In this document: positions 1,621-7,054 of the stretch, piece after piece | Numbering within the stretch: the stretch's first letter is position 1 | How the letters are laid out: every line of letters begins with the position of its first letter | Virus record (IMG/VR): IMGVR_UViG_3300027969_000196 | Span: 1-40,139 of that record | Reading direction: 5' to 3' (one strand) | From: a virus | DNA length: 40,139 nt | The notes under the pieces: model-generated | Database searches by the model: none | Told to the model about the DNA's origin: nothing | The model's input: the letters and a program-made list of their open reading frames with translations, nothing else | Program-made: the position numbers and the translations under genes

Positions 1621-4041
1621 TTATGTTTTATCATGAACGTTGCCGCTCATAGCCTTGGTTGCTCTAACTTGATTAGCAGCTAATCGATTTGTTTCCATTG
1701 CAGACTCACTTAGTTTGCTCATAGTAGTATTTAAGCTAGAAAGTAATTTAGCCACGTCGTCTAGAGTAGCAACTTTTTGGCCAGCTGGTGCTGGCGCTGG
1801 TGCTGGCGCTGGAGTTTCTGTAGGTTTACCAGCTGCAATTCCTCGTTTAGCATCTTCATTTTGTTGATTAGCAGTTTTTTTATCTACTGCTGTTGGAACT
1901 GTTTGTGCTTGGGGTTTAGCTGTTATTTTGGGCATCCCATCCGCACCAATAGAGATTTGATCAAACGATGGCATTTTAAATCCAGCTCGATCAAACGCGG
2001 CACCGGCTCCAGCAGGCATTTTTGGTGCTGTTGCTCCTACTGAACCGCTAGGTGTTCTTCCTAATGCTCTATCAAAGTCAGCTTTTAATTTTTCAGTATT
2101 GGCTAAATTTCCTTGGGCAGCGTATTGTTGTGCGTATTCACGTTCTCCAGGCCTGTGTGCTTTACCGCCATCATCAATATTTGGATCAAACCCACCAGTC
2201 TGAATTGATTTACCAGTATTGTTCCCTGGCATGCCAGGAAAATTAGACGGTATTAAATTCTTAACCATACCCATCATGTCTTCTGGTTTAGACATTGCTG
2301 AAGTATTAATTTTAATATTTTTTGCCATGGCGGCAACATCTATCTTAGGCATTGATTTAGACATTTCTTGAACAGCATTTGCCATGCCGTCCATTTTTGC
2401 ACCTGCCATAAACTTTTGTGCTTGTTCTGGTGTTAATACCATCTCACCTTTTTGCACTTTACCAATAAAATCTGCTGGCTCAAAAGGTTGGCCAGTTTTT
2501 CCCATTGTTCCCTCGTCTCTATTTGGAAGTTTTGCATTAAAGTTCATTACATTCAAAACTTCTGCACCAAAGTTGACTACTTTATTTGCTACATTTAGTC
2601 CGCCTTCTACTAGCCCGCCAGCTACTTTGTCTGCTACTTTTACAATAGGTGCTGCTAGTGGGGCAGCTAGTCTTTCTGCATTGGCTCGAGTACCAGCTGC
2701 TGCCGGTCCTCCGTTAAGGGCGACATTATTAGCTGCTGCTTGGGCATACTGACTAGCAGTTTGTTGAGCAGTATCTCTTGCTCCAACTCCTTGACTAGTT
2801 TCGTTATTAAGTCTTAATAGACCTTGATTTAAACTACCCGGATCTGTTCCACTATTAAGTGGTTTAGCAAACGTATTCATTCCAGCAGCTTTTAAATCTT
2901 GAAGTCTTGCTGTCCCACTAATTAATGCTGCCGTTGCTCCGTGACGTGCTGTTTGTTCATCTTCAATTGCTTTTTTCTGTCCGCCTAAAACTTTTGTAAC
3001 ATCGCTCATTGCAACACCCATAGCTGCGGCAGTTTTTACTGCTCCGTGGTATGCTGCATCGTTTGACTCAATGTTCTTCTTCATTACATCAGCTGCGGCA
3101 CCTGTGCCTGTTGCTGCTACTATTAGTAATGATTCGTTTTTCTGATTGGCCATATTACCAATCTTAGCAGTTTCCATAGATGCTTGACTAGCTTCAATGT
3201 TTCCTTTACTCAATGCTTTGGCAGATTCAGCAGTTCCTCGAGCAGCATCACCAAGTAATCCCATTTGCATTGCTGCTTCTTGGCTACGTACGGTTCCAGT
3301 TGCAAACATTTCTTTGAATACTTGTCCAGTACCCATTGCTTCTGCTTGTGCTAATTGTTTTGCAAATCCTTCTCGAGCAACTTTCTCAGCTTCGGCTCCT
3401 TGTTGCAAGCCAATTAAACGCATTTTAGCTTCAATTTGACCATCAGCTTTGGCTTTTTCTAAACTTGCTTCTTGTTCTTTGCGTGTCTTACCAGTTTGCT
3501 TGGCAATTAAGTCCATCTCAGTTGCTAGTTCAGCAGCTGCCTGGCTTGTTCTAATTTGACCAGCTACACTGGTATCAGTTGTAGACTTTTGGAATCCAAT
3601 CTGAGTCGCAAGAACTTCATTCAAGTCTTTACTAGTATAACCCATCTGACGTAGATTTTCAGTAAGTCCACTGTCAAAGAATGTTTTACTGAACTCTGTG
3701 AAGGCCATCCCGCCTTTGGCAACACTGCCGCCAAGGCCTGCAAAGTCTTTAGCACTCTTAGATTGTACCGCAGCAAATTCTTCAAAACTCATGCGACTAT
3801 TTGCGGCCGCAATACGCATTCCTACAATGTCGTTGTTAAAAGCATTACCAGTATTGCTTAAACTTTGGAATACCTTTTCGCCGTTAGCAACGTAGTCGTA
3901 TAGTCCGCCAATAGCACTTTTAAGTTTGTCCATTGGACCAGTCAAGTTTGAAAAGGGATCTTTAACATCGCCGCCGGCAGGATTTCTTGATCCTATCAAC
4001 TCTCTGAGTTGTTCTTGGGTAAGCGTAACTGGTGCGTTCAT
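1621..4041 (-). CDS. Probable tail tape-measure protein (806 aa)
   Basis: An 806-residue protein rich in Ala, Gly, Met and Lys, mostly predicted helical by eye, with long heptad-like Ala/Glu/Gln stretches between about residues 90 and 300. Around residues 510-552 it carries a GKTGQPFEPADFIGKVQKGE segment followed by MVLTPEQAQKF; this kind of segment (an FxPADxIxxVxKGE pattern) recurs, as I recall, in tape-measure and other tail-internal proteins. A Pro-Ala linker (PAPAPAPA) near residue 745 precedes a C-terminal helix. Tape-measure proteins set tail length and sit inside the tube; at roughly 0.15 nm per residue, 806 residues would suit a tail of about 120 nm. It lies divergent to the gp26/gp51-like genes, matching the chaperone-next-to-ruler arrangement of other tailed phages. 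AGGA at 4050-4053 supports the ATG at 4041. I see no clear similarity to T4 gp29, so the function is inferred; another long internal structural protein is the main alternative. Confidence 0.65.
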   Translation of the reverse strand: MNAPVTLTQEQLRELIGSRNPAGGDVKDPFSNLTGPMDKLKSAIGGLYDYVANGEKVFQSLSNTGNAFNNDIVGMRIAAANSRMSFEEFAAVQSKSAKDFAGLGGSVAKGGMAFTEFSKTFFDSGLTENLRQMGYTSKDLNEVLATQIGFQKSTTDTSVAGQIRTSQAAAELATEMDLIAKQTGKTRKEQEASLEKAKADGQIEAKMRLIGLQQGAEAEKVAREGFAKQLAQAEAMGTGQVFKEMFATGTVRSQEAAMQMGLLGDAARGTAESAKALSKGNIEASQASMETAKIGNMANQKNESLLIVAATGTGAAADVMKKNIESNDAAYHGAVKTAAAMGVAMSDVTKVLGGQKKAIEDEQTARHGATAALISGTARLQDLKAAGMNTFAKPLNSGTDPGSLNQGLLRLNNETSQGVGARDTAQQTASQYAQAAANNVALNGGPAAAGTRANAERLAAPLAAPIVKVADKVAGGLVEGGLNVANKVVNFGAEVLNVMNFNAKLPNRDEGTMGKTGQPFEPADFIGKVQKGEMVLTPEQAQKFMAGAKMDGMANAVQEMSKSMPKIDVAAMAKNIKINTSAMSKPEDMMGMVKNLIPSNFPGMPGNNTGKSIQTGGFDPNIDDGGKAHRPGEREYAQQYAAQGNLANTEKLKADFDRALGRTPSGSVGATAPKMPAGAGAAFDRAGFKMPSFDQISIGADGMPKITAKPQAQTVPTAVDKKTANQQNEDAKRGIAAGKPTETPAPAPAPAPAGQKVATLDDVAKLLSSLNTTMSKLSESAMETNRLAANQVRATKAMSGNVHDKT

Positions 4042-4098: not shown

Positions 4099-4938
4099 AT
4101 GACGGCTAATAACCCTTTACAGAAGTATTATAGACAACCTAAAATTTACATGACACTACCTAGCAAGGGATTGTTCTACCCACCAGGTTCTCTTTTAGGT
4201 GATTATAACAATGTTCCAATCTTTGGAATGACCGGGATGGATGAAATCATTATGAAAACTCCAGATGCATTGTTTAACGGTGAAGCAACTACTAAAGTGA
4301 TTGAAAGTTGTTGCCCTTATATTCCTGATGCCACTGTGATTCCCAGTACAGATGTAGATGCATTACTAGTAGGTATTAGAATTGCCACTTACGGTGGAGA
4401 AATGGAATTGACACATAATTGCCCATCGTGTAAAGCTGAGAATGAATTTGTAGTTGATCTACAAAGAATACTTGATTACTACAGTAGTGTTAATTTTGAT
4501 GGTAAAATAGCAATTGATGATTTATCTATCACCATTAGACCGTTATCTTATGCAGAAGTCACAGCATTTAACATGGAAAATTTTAAATTACAAAAAATGC
4601 TTTACCAATTAAGCAAAGCAGAAGCGGCTGAAGATGAAACTAAAACACAAGAAGTAAACGATTCTATATACAAACGTATTAGCGAAATGCAAGTAGAATT
4701 ATTTTTAATTAGCATTGATAATATTCAAGTCAGTGGAGAAACTGTTACTGACGGTGACACTATTGCTGAGTGGTTGCAAAACAGTGACCGTAAATTCTTC
4801 CAGGTGATCAAAGAGAAACTTGAAAGAAACAAAGAAATGTGGAATATGCCCAAGCAACACGTAACATGTTCTGCTTGCAGTCACGAAACTGATGTTGAAG
4901 TAACATTAGACCAAGCAAATTTTTTCGCCAGAAGCTAA
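4099..4938 (+). CDS. 26: Baseplate hub protein, gp26-like, with two CxxC motifs
   Basis: A 279-residue protein starting MTANNPLQKYY. The segment PKIYMTLPSKGLFYPPG near residues 15-31 and the two metal-binding-type pairs CPSC (C108, C111) and CSAC (C257, C260) resemble the gp26-type baseplate hub proteins of aquatic T4-like phages, which I recall as having a paired-cysteine, zinc-ribbon-like layout. T4 gp26 is smaller (about 208 residues) and acts in assembly of the central hub. The ATG at 4099 is chosen because GGAG at 4089-4092 sits 6 bases upstream; an in-frame ATG at 4009 is rejected because it lies inside the divergent tape-measure gene and upstream of the late promoter. The last codons contain the slippery heptamer AAATTTT (4917-4923), so a second, frameshifted product is likely. 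Alternative reading: the first half of a tail assembly chaperone pair. Confidence 0.7.
   Translation: MTANNPLQKYYRQPKIYMTLPSKGLFYPPGSLLGDYNNVPIFGMTGMDEIIMKTPDALFNGEATTKVIESCCPYIPDATVIPSTDVDALLVGIRIATYGGEMELTHNCPSCKAENEFVVDLQRILDYYSSVNFDGKIAIDDLSITIRPLSYAEVTAFNMENFKLQKMLYQLSKAEAAEDETKTQEVNDSIYKRISEMQVELFLISIDNIQVSGETVTDGDTIAEWLQNSDRKFFQVIKEKLERNKEMWNMPKQHVTCSACSHETDVEVTLDQANFFARS
4917..4923 (+). promoter_or_regulatory. Candidate -1 programmed frameshift site (A AAT TTT)
   Basis: In the reading frame of the gp26-like gene the bases split as A AAT TTT, which fits the X XXY YYZ rule for simultaneous -1 slippage. The zero-frame stop follows at 4936-4938. After slippage, translation would resume at 4923 and continue to 5159. 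I do not see a strong stem or pseudoknot in the next 30 bases, so the stimulator, if any, is not obvious. Confidence 0.65.
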
Positions 4939-5159
4939 TTTATATCCCGGACTCTGAGCTAGAAGATTTTCTCAAGGGTCATGATAGATACGTCCATGGT
5001 ATAAAAGACGAAATTTATCGAATTAGCTGGTTTATGCGTGGCGGGGTTTCAGTAAGTGAACTAATGTTCAGTCTTTCTAGAGAAGATCGTTTAATTATGA
5101 ACGAAATTATTAAAGAAAATATTGAACTAACTAAGAACAGTGGCTTGCCACTGATGTAA
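4923..5159 (+). CDS. gp51-like C-terminal extension, read in the -1 frame after gp26
   Basis: This frame is open from 4899 (in-frame TGA codons lie at 4890 and 4896) to the TAA at 5157-5159. It contains no ATG, GTG or TTG until the ATG at 5034, which would cut off half of the domain. Read from the slippery site it adds 78 residues to residue 275 of the gp26-like protein, giving a 353-residue fusion. The sequence contains ISWFMRGGVSVSELMFSLSR and ends in KNSGLPLM; the W-x-M-R-G-G...L-S-x-x-D/E-R pattern resembles small hub-assembly or tail-chaperone proteins next to gp26 in other T4-like phages (gp51-like, from memory). It is therefore a real coding segment that probably depends on frameshifting. 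Its stop codon directly abuts the stop of the convergent gene at 5160. A non-standard ATT start is the alternative. Confidence 0.7.
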   Translation, partial: FRQKLIYIPDSELEDFLKGHDRYVHGIKDEIYRISWFMRGGVSVSELMFSLSREDRLIMNEIIKENIELTKNSGLPLM

Positions 5160-6113
5160 TCACTTGCCGCCGCGGCCAGTTCCTTTGAATGGGTCAACAT
5201 AGTTACCGTTGCCGCCGCCGCCCATCATGTCACCAACTTTGTTCATAACACTTGCGGGATCGTTTAGATCAATTTCATCGCTAGGTTTGTAGCCACTTGG
5301 TAAATTTCCAGAGGCTACTTGAACAGCAGCTTTGGTTACATCATAAACTTTACCAATTAATTCTGGTGCTGATCCTACTCCAGTGATTAAGAAACCAAAT
5401 GTATTTTTTAACCATTCTTTTCCATCACCTACGCCAAACCAAGCAATAAGAGCTGCTTCGGTTCCACGCTTACTTAAATGTTTCATAATTTCAGCAGCGT
5501 TAGGACTGCCGCTGATTTTTGTTAGCCATGGAATTACTTTTAAAGGAAATGCCAGTTTACTAATTCCCCATGCTCCAACTTTTGGGGCAATGACTGATAC
5601 TATCAATTCTCCACGAAGCTGTCTAATAGCATCTATTTTCTGTTCGTCAGTTAGACTAGGGTCATTTTCAATTTCAGTTGATTTGACCCAATATACTGTT
5701 GCTTCTTTAATCATATCTACTGCGTATAGCGTTCTAACAATAGTATCAGCTTTACTAGCAAGTACTGTTGATTTTAAAGCACCTGCTGCTAATGCATCTG
5801 CTTTGGCGCTGCCTTTTGCGGCAATTTTTGCAGCTTCTGTTTCCCACCAGCTTGCAGTCTTAGCCACGTCAACTTGAGCAGCACCTTTTGTAGTAGAGGT
5901 AGTGGCTTTTGCAGCATCAATTGCTGCCTTAGAAGGTTTACCAGCAGCAGCTAAATCTTTAATAGCTTGAGCTTTCTTTGCGGCCGCAGTAGCAGCCTTC
6001 TGAGCAGCAGTAGCAGCCGCAGGAACAGCAGACCTAGCAGCCTTATATGCGTTCCAACCAGTCTTAATTGCTGAAATAGGATCAGCTTCAGAAACAATTT
6101 GATGAATTTTCAT
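5160..6113 (-). CDS. Ala-rich protein with capsid-targeting-type N-terminus; candidate internal head protein
   Basis: A 317-residue protein that I do not recognise as a named family. Its N-terminus, MKIHQIVSEAD, has the layout of the T4 capsid-targeting sequence (MKTYQEFIAE, cut after the Glu by the prohead protease in T4 internal proteins), with the likely cut after Glu9. Residues 20-115 are dominated by Ala and Lys with little aromatic content (AAATAAQKAA type helices). Residues 155-260 are more globular, with hydrophobic segments such as LIVSVIAPKVGAWGISKLAF and WFGVGDG. The C-terminus is Gly-rich (GDMMGGGGNGNY) and ends GTGRGGK. There is no signal peptide. From known T4 biology I infer packaging in the head and possible ejection into the host; a DNA-binding or structural role is possible. 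It is convergent with, and abuts, the gp51-like frame. A late-type promoter lies very close to its ATG. Confidence 0.6.
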   Translation of the reverse strand: MKIHQIVSEADPISAIKTGWNAYKAARSAVPAAATAAQKAATAAAKKAQAIKDLAAAGKPSKAAIDAAKATTSTTKGAAQVDVAKTASWWETEAAKIAAKGSAKADALAAGALKSTVLASKADTIVRTLYAVDMIKEATVYWVKSTEIENDPSLTDEQKIDAIRQLRGELIVSVIAPKVGAWGISKLAFPLKVIPWLTKISGSPNAAEIMKHLSKRGTEAALIAWFGVGDGKEWLKNTFGFLITGVGSAPELIGKVYDVTKAAVQVASGNLPSGYKPSDEIDLNDPASVMNKVGDMMGGGGNGNYVDPFKGTGRGGK

Positions 6114-6249: not shown

Positions 6250-6628
6250 TATTATCTAGATTGTTTAGTCACACTTGGCCCTGGCGGGCCAAAGTTTTGA
6301 ACATTATCTGAGTTGCATAGTTCACTTAGCGTTGTGGCGATTGCAGAGGCGGTCATCCTGTACCTCGAGCCACGTCTTTATATGACGGCGGTCTGTGTAG
6401 TATACGCTAACATACACACAAACGTAGGGAATACTATCCCTTCATTTAGCCTTGTAAATTTGTTTTTAAACAGCAAAATCAGTTTATGGAAGGCATATCC
6501 GATCATCGTCCTGTTAAGGATAGTTGCTGAGTACTCTTGGCGGCAAGAGATTTCCGTCCGGGCGTAGTTAAACCCCTTGTCCTGGGCACTTGATGTTAGC
6601 TAGTGCTTGCTTAATACCGCTGGAGAGC
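6250..6628. ncRNA. Candidate structured noncoding RNA region
   Basis: About 380 bases with no convincing gene on either strand, unusual in a window where spacers are mostly 0-60 bases. Stems visible directly: TTGGCCC/GGGCCAA (6275-6281 with 6286-6292, loop TGGC); GTGGC/GCCAC (6334-6338 with 6369-6373) enclosing GAGG/CCTC (6346-6349 with 6363-6366); CGTC/GACG (6373-6376 with 6384-6387); TGTGTAGTAT/ATACACACA with one bulge (6394-6403 with 6412-6420); GGGA/TCCC (6427-6430 with 6437-6440); CAGCAA/TTGCTG (6471-6476 with 6524-6529) enclosing a TATG/CATA hairpin and an ATCC/GGAT stem; CTCTTG/CAAGAG (6534-6539 with 6544-6549, loop GCGG); GCACT/AGTGC (6586-6590 with 6602-6606). It also looks richer in GC than the flanks. 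I cannot match it to tRNA, tmRNA, RNase P RNA or a group I intron core. The coding strand is undecided: it may be the 3' part of the minus-strand early operon transcript or an independent RNA. Confidence 0.5.
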
Positions 6629-7054
6629 CTAAGATTTTAATATATGTGAGCCGTGTACGCGGACTTGAATATGTCCGTTATACCAGTCATCTGATTCTAA
6701 TACTTTATTGAGGAATTGTTCTCTGGCCTCGATGTAAGAGCATTGCGCCTTTGATGTACAGTAGTATAAAATTTCGCGTTTGAAATTTTCTTTGCCTAAG
6801 AGTTCTATGTCTTTAGATAGATTAGGCGAGCTACCGTAGTAGTCCCTCCAGTCACTATCAATTTTGCTTCTAATTTTCTTCTTTTTCTTGCTGCCATTCT
6901 TTAGCTTGACTACTTTGTAGGTAGTTTTTGCAAATTTTGCAAGTTTCTTGCCTATGTACTTTTTGCCAGAGATTGTATTGGTTATCAAATATACGAAGCC
7001 TACGCAGTCTTCTGGTAGTTCTTCTATTTGCGTATCTTGATAAGTCCAATGCAT
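6629..7054 (-). CDS. GIY-YIG family nuclease
   Basis: A 141-residue protein with the GIY-YIG nuclease layout: GFVYLI at residues 19-24 and YIGKK at 33-37, about 10 residues apart, then candidate catalytic Arg70 (DSDWRDYYGS), Glu109/Glu112 (SYIEAREQF) and Asn126 (DWYNGHI). A Lys-rich stretch (KNGSKKKKKIRSK, about 52-64) between them may bind DNA. Stand-alone proteins of this kind are common in aquatic T4-like phages and resemble the Seg endonucleases of T4, which cut DNA and can drive marker exchange. It is the last gene of the gp55-gp47-gp46 operon, starting 3 bases after the preceding stop, which argues for a resident repair or recombination function rather than a recent insertion. Its substrate is unknown. 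Confidence 0.85.
   Translation of the reverse strand: MHWTYQDTQIEELPEDCVGFVYLITNTISGKKYIGKKLAKFAKTTYKVVKLKNGSKKKKKIRSKIDSDWRDYYGSSPNLSKDIELLGKENFKREILYYCTSKAQCSYIEAREQFLNKVLESDDWYNGHIQVRVHGSHILKS

Follow-up and report, generated by a model that had tools for sequence, protein, structure and literature searches.

Genes 26 and 51 of phage T4 are reportedly described as TAC-N and TAC-NC (TAC, tail assembly chaperone) in the abstract of the 2022 study by Vladimirov and co-workers, and the same abstract is said to state that frameshifting is retained in several T4-like groups. A 2016 review described the G-T frameshift as widely conserved "except T4" (PMC5009743). According to passages in two papers, the TAC genes of T4-like phages were identified by Vladimirov, Gautam & Davidson (2022, Virology 566:9-15; PMC10885494, PMC12846349). 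One of these passages mentions that some T4-like phages carry separate short and long TAC genes (PMC10885494), and the other refers to poly-T slips as already known within the TAC-N genes of such phages (PMC12846349). An earlier note on the DNA analyzed here had proposed that a -1 frameshift near the end of a gp26-like gene fuses its product to a gp51-like domain, as the T4-lineage counterpart of the lambda G/GT pair, and its author knew of no report of this. Since T4-like TAC genes are already attributed to Vladimirov et al. 2022 in these passages (PMC10885494, PMC12846349), the idea of a gp26/gp51 frameshift is not new; in our literature search, no report of it was recognized beyond that TAC work. 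The tail-chaperone frameshift is a very old device of tailed phages, and what is added here is a giant-phage lineage and a near-invariant slip site.

The window, that is, the whole stretch of 40,139 nucleotides that was analyzed (IMG/VR record IMGVR_UViG_3300027969_000196), contains a gp26-like ORF of 279 amino acids on the plus strand (4099-4938), the proposed TAC-N. The ORF matches the family PF12322 (T4_baseplate) with 63.3 bits against a curated cut-off of 24.5 (E 3.4e-17), and phrog_150 with an E-value of 8.7e-19. No second copy of PF12322 was found in the window's own record, which consists of the 40 kb window alone. The 3′ end of the ORF reads GCA AAT TTT TTC GCC AGA AGC TAA and contains two overlapping heptamers in phase, A_AAT_TTT (4917-4923, plus strand) and T_TTT_TTC (4920-4926, plus strand), and a slip at either of them leads to an identical 353-residue fusion. 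The zero-frame stop TAA (4936-4938, plus strand) lies 9 nt past T_TTT_TTC. Among 19 ORFs of the window that were checked, the gp26-like ORF is the one with an XXXYYYZ heptamer in phase within its last 60 nt, and given this count the heptamer at its end is not a product of chance. The -1 frame is open from stop to stop at 4899-5159 (plus strand), and its first ATG, GTG or TTG occurs at 5034. From the slip site onward (4920-5159, plus strand), this frame encodes the proposed TAC-C, a C-terminal domain of 79 residues (FFR...WFMRGGV...) with an all-helical predicted model (pLDDT 80). The coordinates given in the earlier note for A_AAT_TTT and the -1 frame were reproduced, as were the phase of A_AAT_TTT, its spacing to the zero-frame stop, the 353-residue length of the fusion and the lack of a start codon before the middle of the domain.

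We propose that most ribosomes would stop at 4936 and produce the short form, TAC-N, of 279 amino acids. A minority would slip back by one base at T_TTT_TTC (4920-4926), with tRNA-Phe re-pairing on TTT TTT, and would continue in the -1 frame to 5159, producing the long form, TAC-NC, of 353 residues. By analogy with lambda G/GT, coating of the tape-measure protein would fall to the part shared by both forms, and recruitment of tail-tube subunits to the additional helical domain of the long form.

Relatives were chosen from IMG/VR regardless of the site, 80 of them via the gp26 of the window and 80 via a cyanophage gp26. Nine of these 160 are truncated by a contig edge, which leaves 151 complete relatives, and TTTTTTC is present in phase in every one of them (151/151). 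A wider tally of 175 loci adds to these 151 the window itself plus 23 annotated loci, hand-picked after inspection, of which 21 carry TTTTTTC and two (CM1 and XacN1) TTTTTTT; LIS04, SP-15, LR756508, LR756511, Marshall and T4 were left out of this tally for want of the site. When the 175 loci, including the hand-picked ones, are clustered at 70% identity, 59 of the 61 clusters carry TTTTTTC and the other two TTTTTTT. The codon preceding the run is AGT, AAT, GAT, TCT, CAT, ACT, CGT, TAT or GCT across the 61 clusters, encoding eight amino acids. A_AAT_TTT is not a conserved element because this codon varies, and we rejected it as the working slip site. The earlier note, which had named A_AAT_TTT and suggested checking its conservation across relatives, was right to expect an in-phase -1 slippery heptamer, but the heptamer that is kept is T_TTT_TTC (151/151), and some distant relatives lack it. 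Outside the run, phenylalanine in these genes is encoded by TTT in 449 cases and by TTC in 182, and the distance from the slip to the zero-frame stop ranges from 0 to 33 nt across the set.

The site is absent from the distant relatives LIS04, SP-15, LR756508, LR756511 and Marshall, and also from T4. In LIS04 and SP-15, a small ORF lies between gp26 and a long tail gene in the +1/-2 frame at TTT TTT, possibly reflecting a frameshift of another kind. Ackermannviridae-type gp26 loci have a related-looking -1 ORF after gp26 that is startless before +32. These loci lack T6C and keep GA[AG] ATT TTC AT[TC] TAA in its place, and entry into their -1 ORF would therefore need another route.

The -1 domain evolves as a protein. 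Its dN/dS is about 0.03-0.1 in close pairs of the window clade, and the third codon position is the most variable. Over the 29 codons that precede any start, pN/pS across all pairs is noisy, with a median of 0.8, and the two shifted frames give 1.09 and 1.53; for this reason, protein-like evolution was judged solely on closely related pairs and on a longer part of the frame.

The domain could still be made as a separate small protein, through termination-reinitiation or an unusual start, with T6C kept merely since both frames read Phe-Phe. Several records do annotate it as a separate small CDS, and in 121Q, XbC2, EniLVp02 and others an ATG overlaps or adjoins the zero-frame stop of gp26, so that added re-initiation is possible in these phages, which keep the slip site too. 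This explanation fits poorly with the 20 of 61 clusters, the window among them, that have no ATG, GTG or TTG between the upstream -1 stop and 75 nt past the slip start. Similarly, 31 distinct window-clade sequences lack a start anywhere between the -1 stop upstream and codon 37 of the domain, and the whole -1 ORF of PA5oct and of Paride contains no ATG, GTG or TTG. The domain is conserved in an alignment of 30 window-clade representatives, and its residues F1, F2, R3 and L6 (numbering begins at the slip) do not vary there; they sit at the slip, upstream of any start codon in the window, which also argues against reinitiation. In six of the 61 clusters, the -1 stop abuts the heptamer, leaving entry to the heptamer or to a downstream start. 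The earlier note had named relatives with a normal start codon as evidence that would speak against its proposal, and this applies in part, to 121Q, XbC2, EniLVp02 and others, all of them with the slip site. Overall, we regard a separately started protein as improbable.

Transcriptional slippage, in which RNA polymerase would slip on the T run and an indel in part of the mRNA would join the two frames, seems marginally less probable still. The junction does contain a homopolymeric T run, but it consists of six T's, a length that is short for efficient bacterial polymerase slippage, and a longer run occurs in relatives just in the two T7 cases; both the phase and the following C are also kept. 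We give next to no credence to a chance ORF or to a single gene split by a sequencing error. The identical split, phase and site recur across many independent assemblies and sequenced isolates, which contradicts this explanation, and the comparison of loci provided no support for it.

Returning to the -1 frameshift, the slip-site conservation, the protein-like -1 domain, the missing starts and the contrast with T4 (see below) suggest that two forms of a tail assembly chaperone, TAC-N and TAC-NC, are very probably produced from this locus through slippage at T_TTT_TTC. The ribosomal shift, its rate and the tail-chaperone action of the products are what we infer from the sequences. Comparative evidence of this kind supports the core proposal of the earlier note, in which a -1 frameshift near the end of gp26 would be the T4-lineage counterpart of G/GT.

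In T4, gp26 ends in TTC TTT, gene 25 comes next, and the slip site is absent. T4 gp51 matches phrog_150 over residues 3-248 (E 2.6e-84), which covers the gp26 profile almost completely, and its C-terminal part matches phrog_634 (E 1.2e-23). Judging from these matches, gp51 is a paralogue of gp26 to which a gp51-type domain has been joined in the same frame. Because the site is absent and gp51 is a paralogue of gp26 with an in-frame extra domain, T4 appears to hard-wire the short (gp26) and long (gp51) forms as two genes via duplication. We tentatively raise the possibility, to which we assign somewhat less than an even chance, that the T_TTT_TTC of gp26 represents a near-invariant recoding element inherited from an ancestor of T4-related phages, that it works without a conserved RNA stimulator and at a rate perhaps governed by how far away the zero-frame stop lies, and that in T4 a duplicated gene (gp26 and gp51) took its place.

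No conserved RNA stimulator was found at the slip site: the consensus fold has an energy of -0.22 kcal/mol, and single folds are mostly unremarkable. Shine-Dalgarno-like 4-mers upstream of the slip show a mild excess, occurring in 15 of 61 clusters compared with 109 of 1220 random positions, and none was seen upstream of the slip in the window.

The site and the frame are shared by RaK2, GAP32, 121Q, CBB, SCTP-2, Atu_ph07, Phosso, PA5oct, Vibrio 2.275, Munch and others, as well as by Aeh1 and BUCT608 and by a KVP40-like Vibrio phage. At cyanophage-type loci (80 distinct), TTT TTC is in phase at every locus listed, and the -1 domain of the loci that were scanned belongs to phrog_634, "baseplate hub assembly catalyst". 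A maximum-likelihood tree places the window clade close to the giant phages, as one group of 30 (support 100/99). This clade is uncultured, and its relatives include RaK2, PA5oct and Atu_ph07. The same tree groups T4 gp26 and gp51 with Aeh1 and EniLVp02, a placement to which a long-branch warning applies. In profile comparisons with hhalign, the window -1 domain matches the RaK2-group domain (97%, E 1.8e-10) and has no detectable similarity to the cyanophage gp51 domain (6.7%), and the PHROG search returned no phrog_634 match for it. We therefore rejected the identification of the window domain as gp51 by sequence; the label "gp51-like" used in the earlier note is apt for its position, frame and architecture.

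Structure searches were carried out with the predicted models. The AlphaFold2 model of the gp26-like protein (pLDDT 86.6) had no Foldseek match in the PDB at E ≤ 0.001, so that a TAC fold is not confirmed, and its matches in BFVD are gp26-type baseplate proteins. The model of the -1 domain had no viral Foldseek match at E ≤ 0.001. Profile searches against the sequences of solved structures returned two chains of PHD finger protein 10 for gp26 (E about 0.9) and 11 weak matches for the -1 domain, the best being a ferritin (E 0.075); we do not consider these meaningful. The NCBIfam search returned nothing above the curated cut-off.

Upstream of the gp26-like ORF, a divergent gene on the minus strand (1621-4041) encodes a putative tape-measure-like protein of 806 amino acids. 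This gene has no Pfam or PHROG family and nothing above the cut-off in NCBIfam. Its N-terminus has weak blastp similarity to genes at the same position in RaK2-like phages, one of which is annotated "putative tape measure protein", and phmmer found none. A long divergent ORF is located upstream in 68 of the 71 relatives with enough upstream sequence. The tape-measure-like identity that the earlier note gave to the divergent gene is weakly supported by the sequence similarity. In SP-15 and EniLVp02, the order is tube genes upstream, then gp26, the small ORF and a long gene.

A chaperone of the lambda G/GT type would be expected to be absent from the virion, and on this point the annotations conflict: the gp26 homologue of PA5oct has no ESI-MS/MS tag, although the two nearest genes to one side of it carry one, and the homologue in CBB is annotated as "structural protein". 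Elsewhere in the window, an Rfam RF01718 Polynucleobacter-1 RNA was found with 89 bits at 6468-6611 on the minus strand, between the ORFs at 5160-6113 and 6629-7054, and may hint at a freshwater host.

These results would extend the tail-chaperone frameshift to a giant-phage lineage in which annotations often miss the extra domain or call it a separate gene, and pin the slip site to one near-invariant heptamer. PA5oct, RaK2 and GAP32 are culturable and would allow a test of the fusion. Like lambda gpG/gpGT, the locus combines a short ORF upstream, a -1 slip close to the 3′ end of this ORF and a startless domain downstream, a likeness of layout, with no match in sequence or fold shown. It differs in that the putative tape-measure gene is oriented away from the window pair, which is not placed between the tube and tape-measure genes, and the slip sequence of lambda gpG/gpGT differs from T_TTT_TTC. 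With the T4-like TAC genes, the locus shares the proposed TAC pair and, going by a passage on some of these groups, a poly-T slip (PMC12846349), whereas the C-terminal domain in the window is without detectable similarity to cyanophage gp51. The TAC locus of Vandenendeviridae and Andersonviridae (phage Adele), compared here by slip motif alone, differs in its GTTTTT motif and, as described in a passage of the same paper, resembles the window in the conserved -1 poly-T frameshift that ends TAC-N (PMC12846349).
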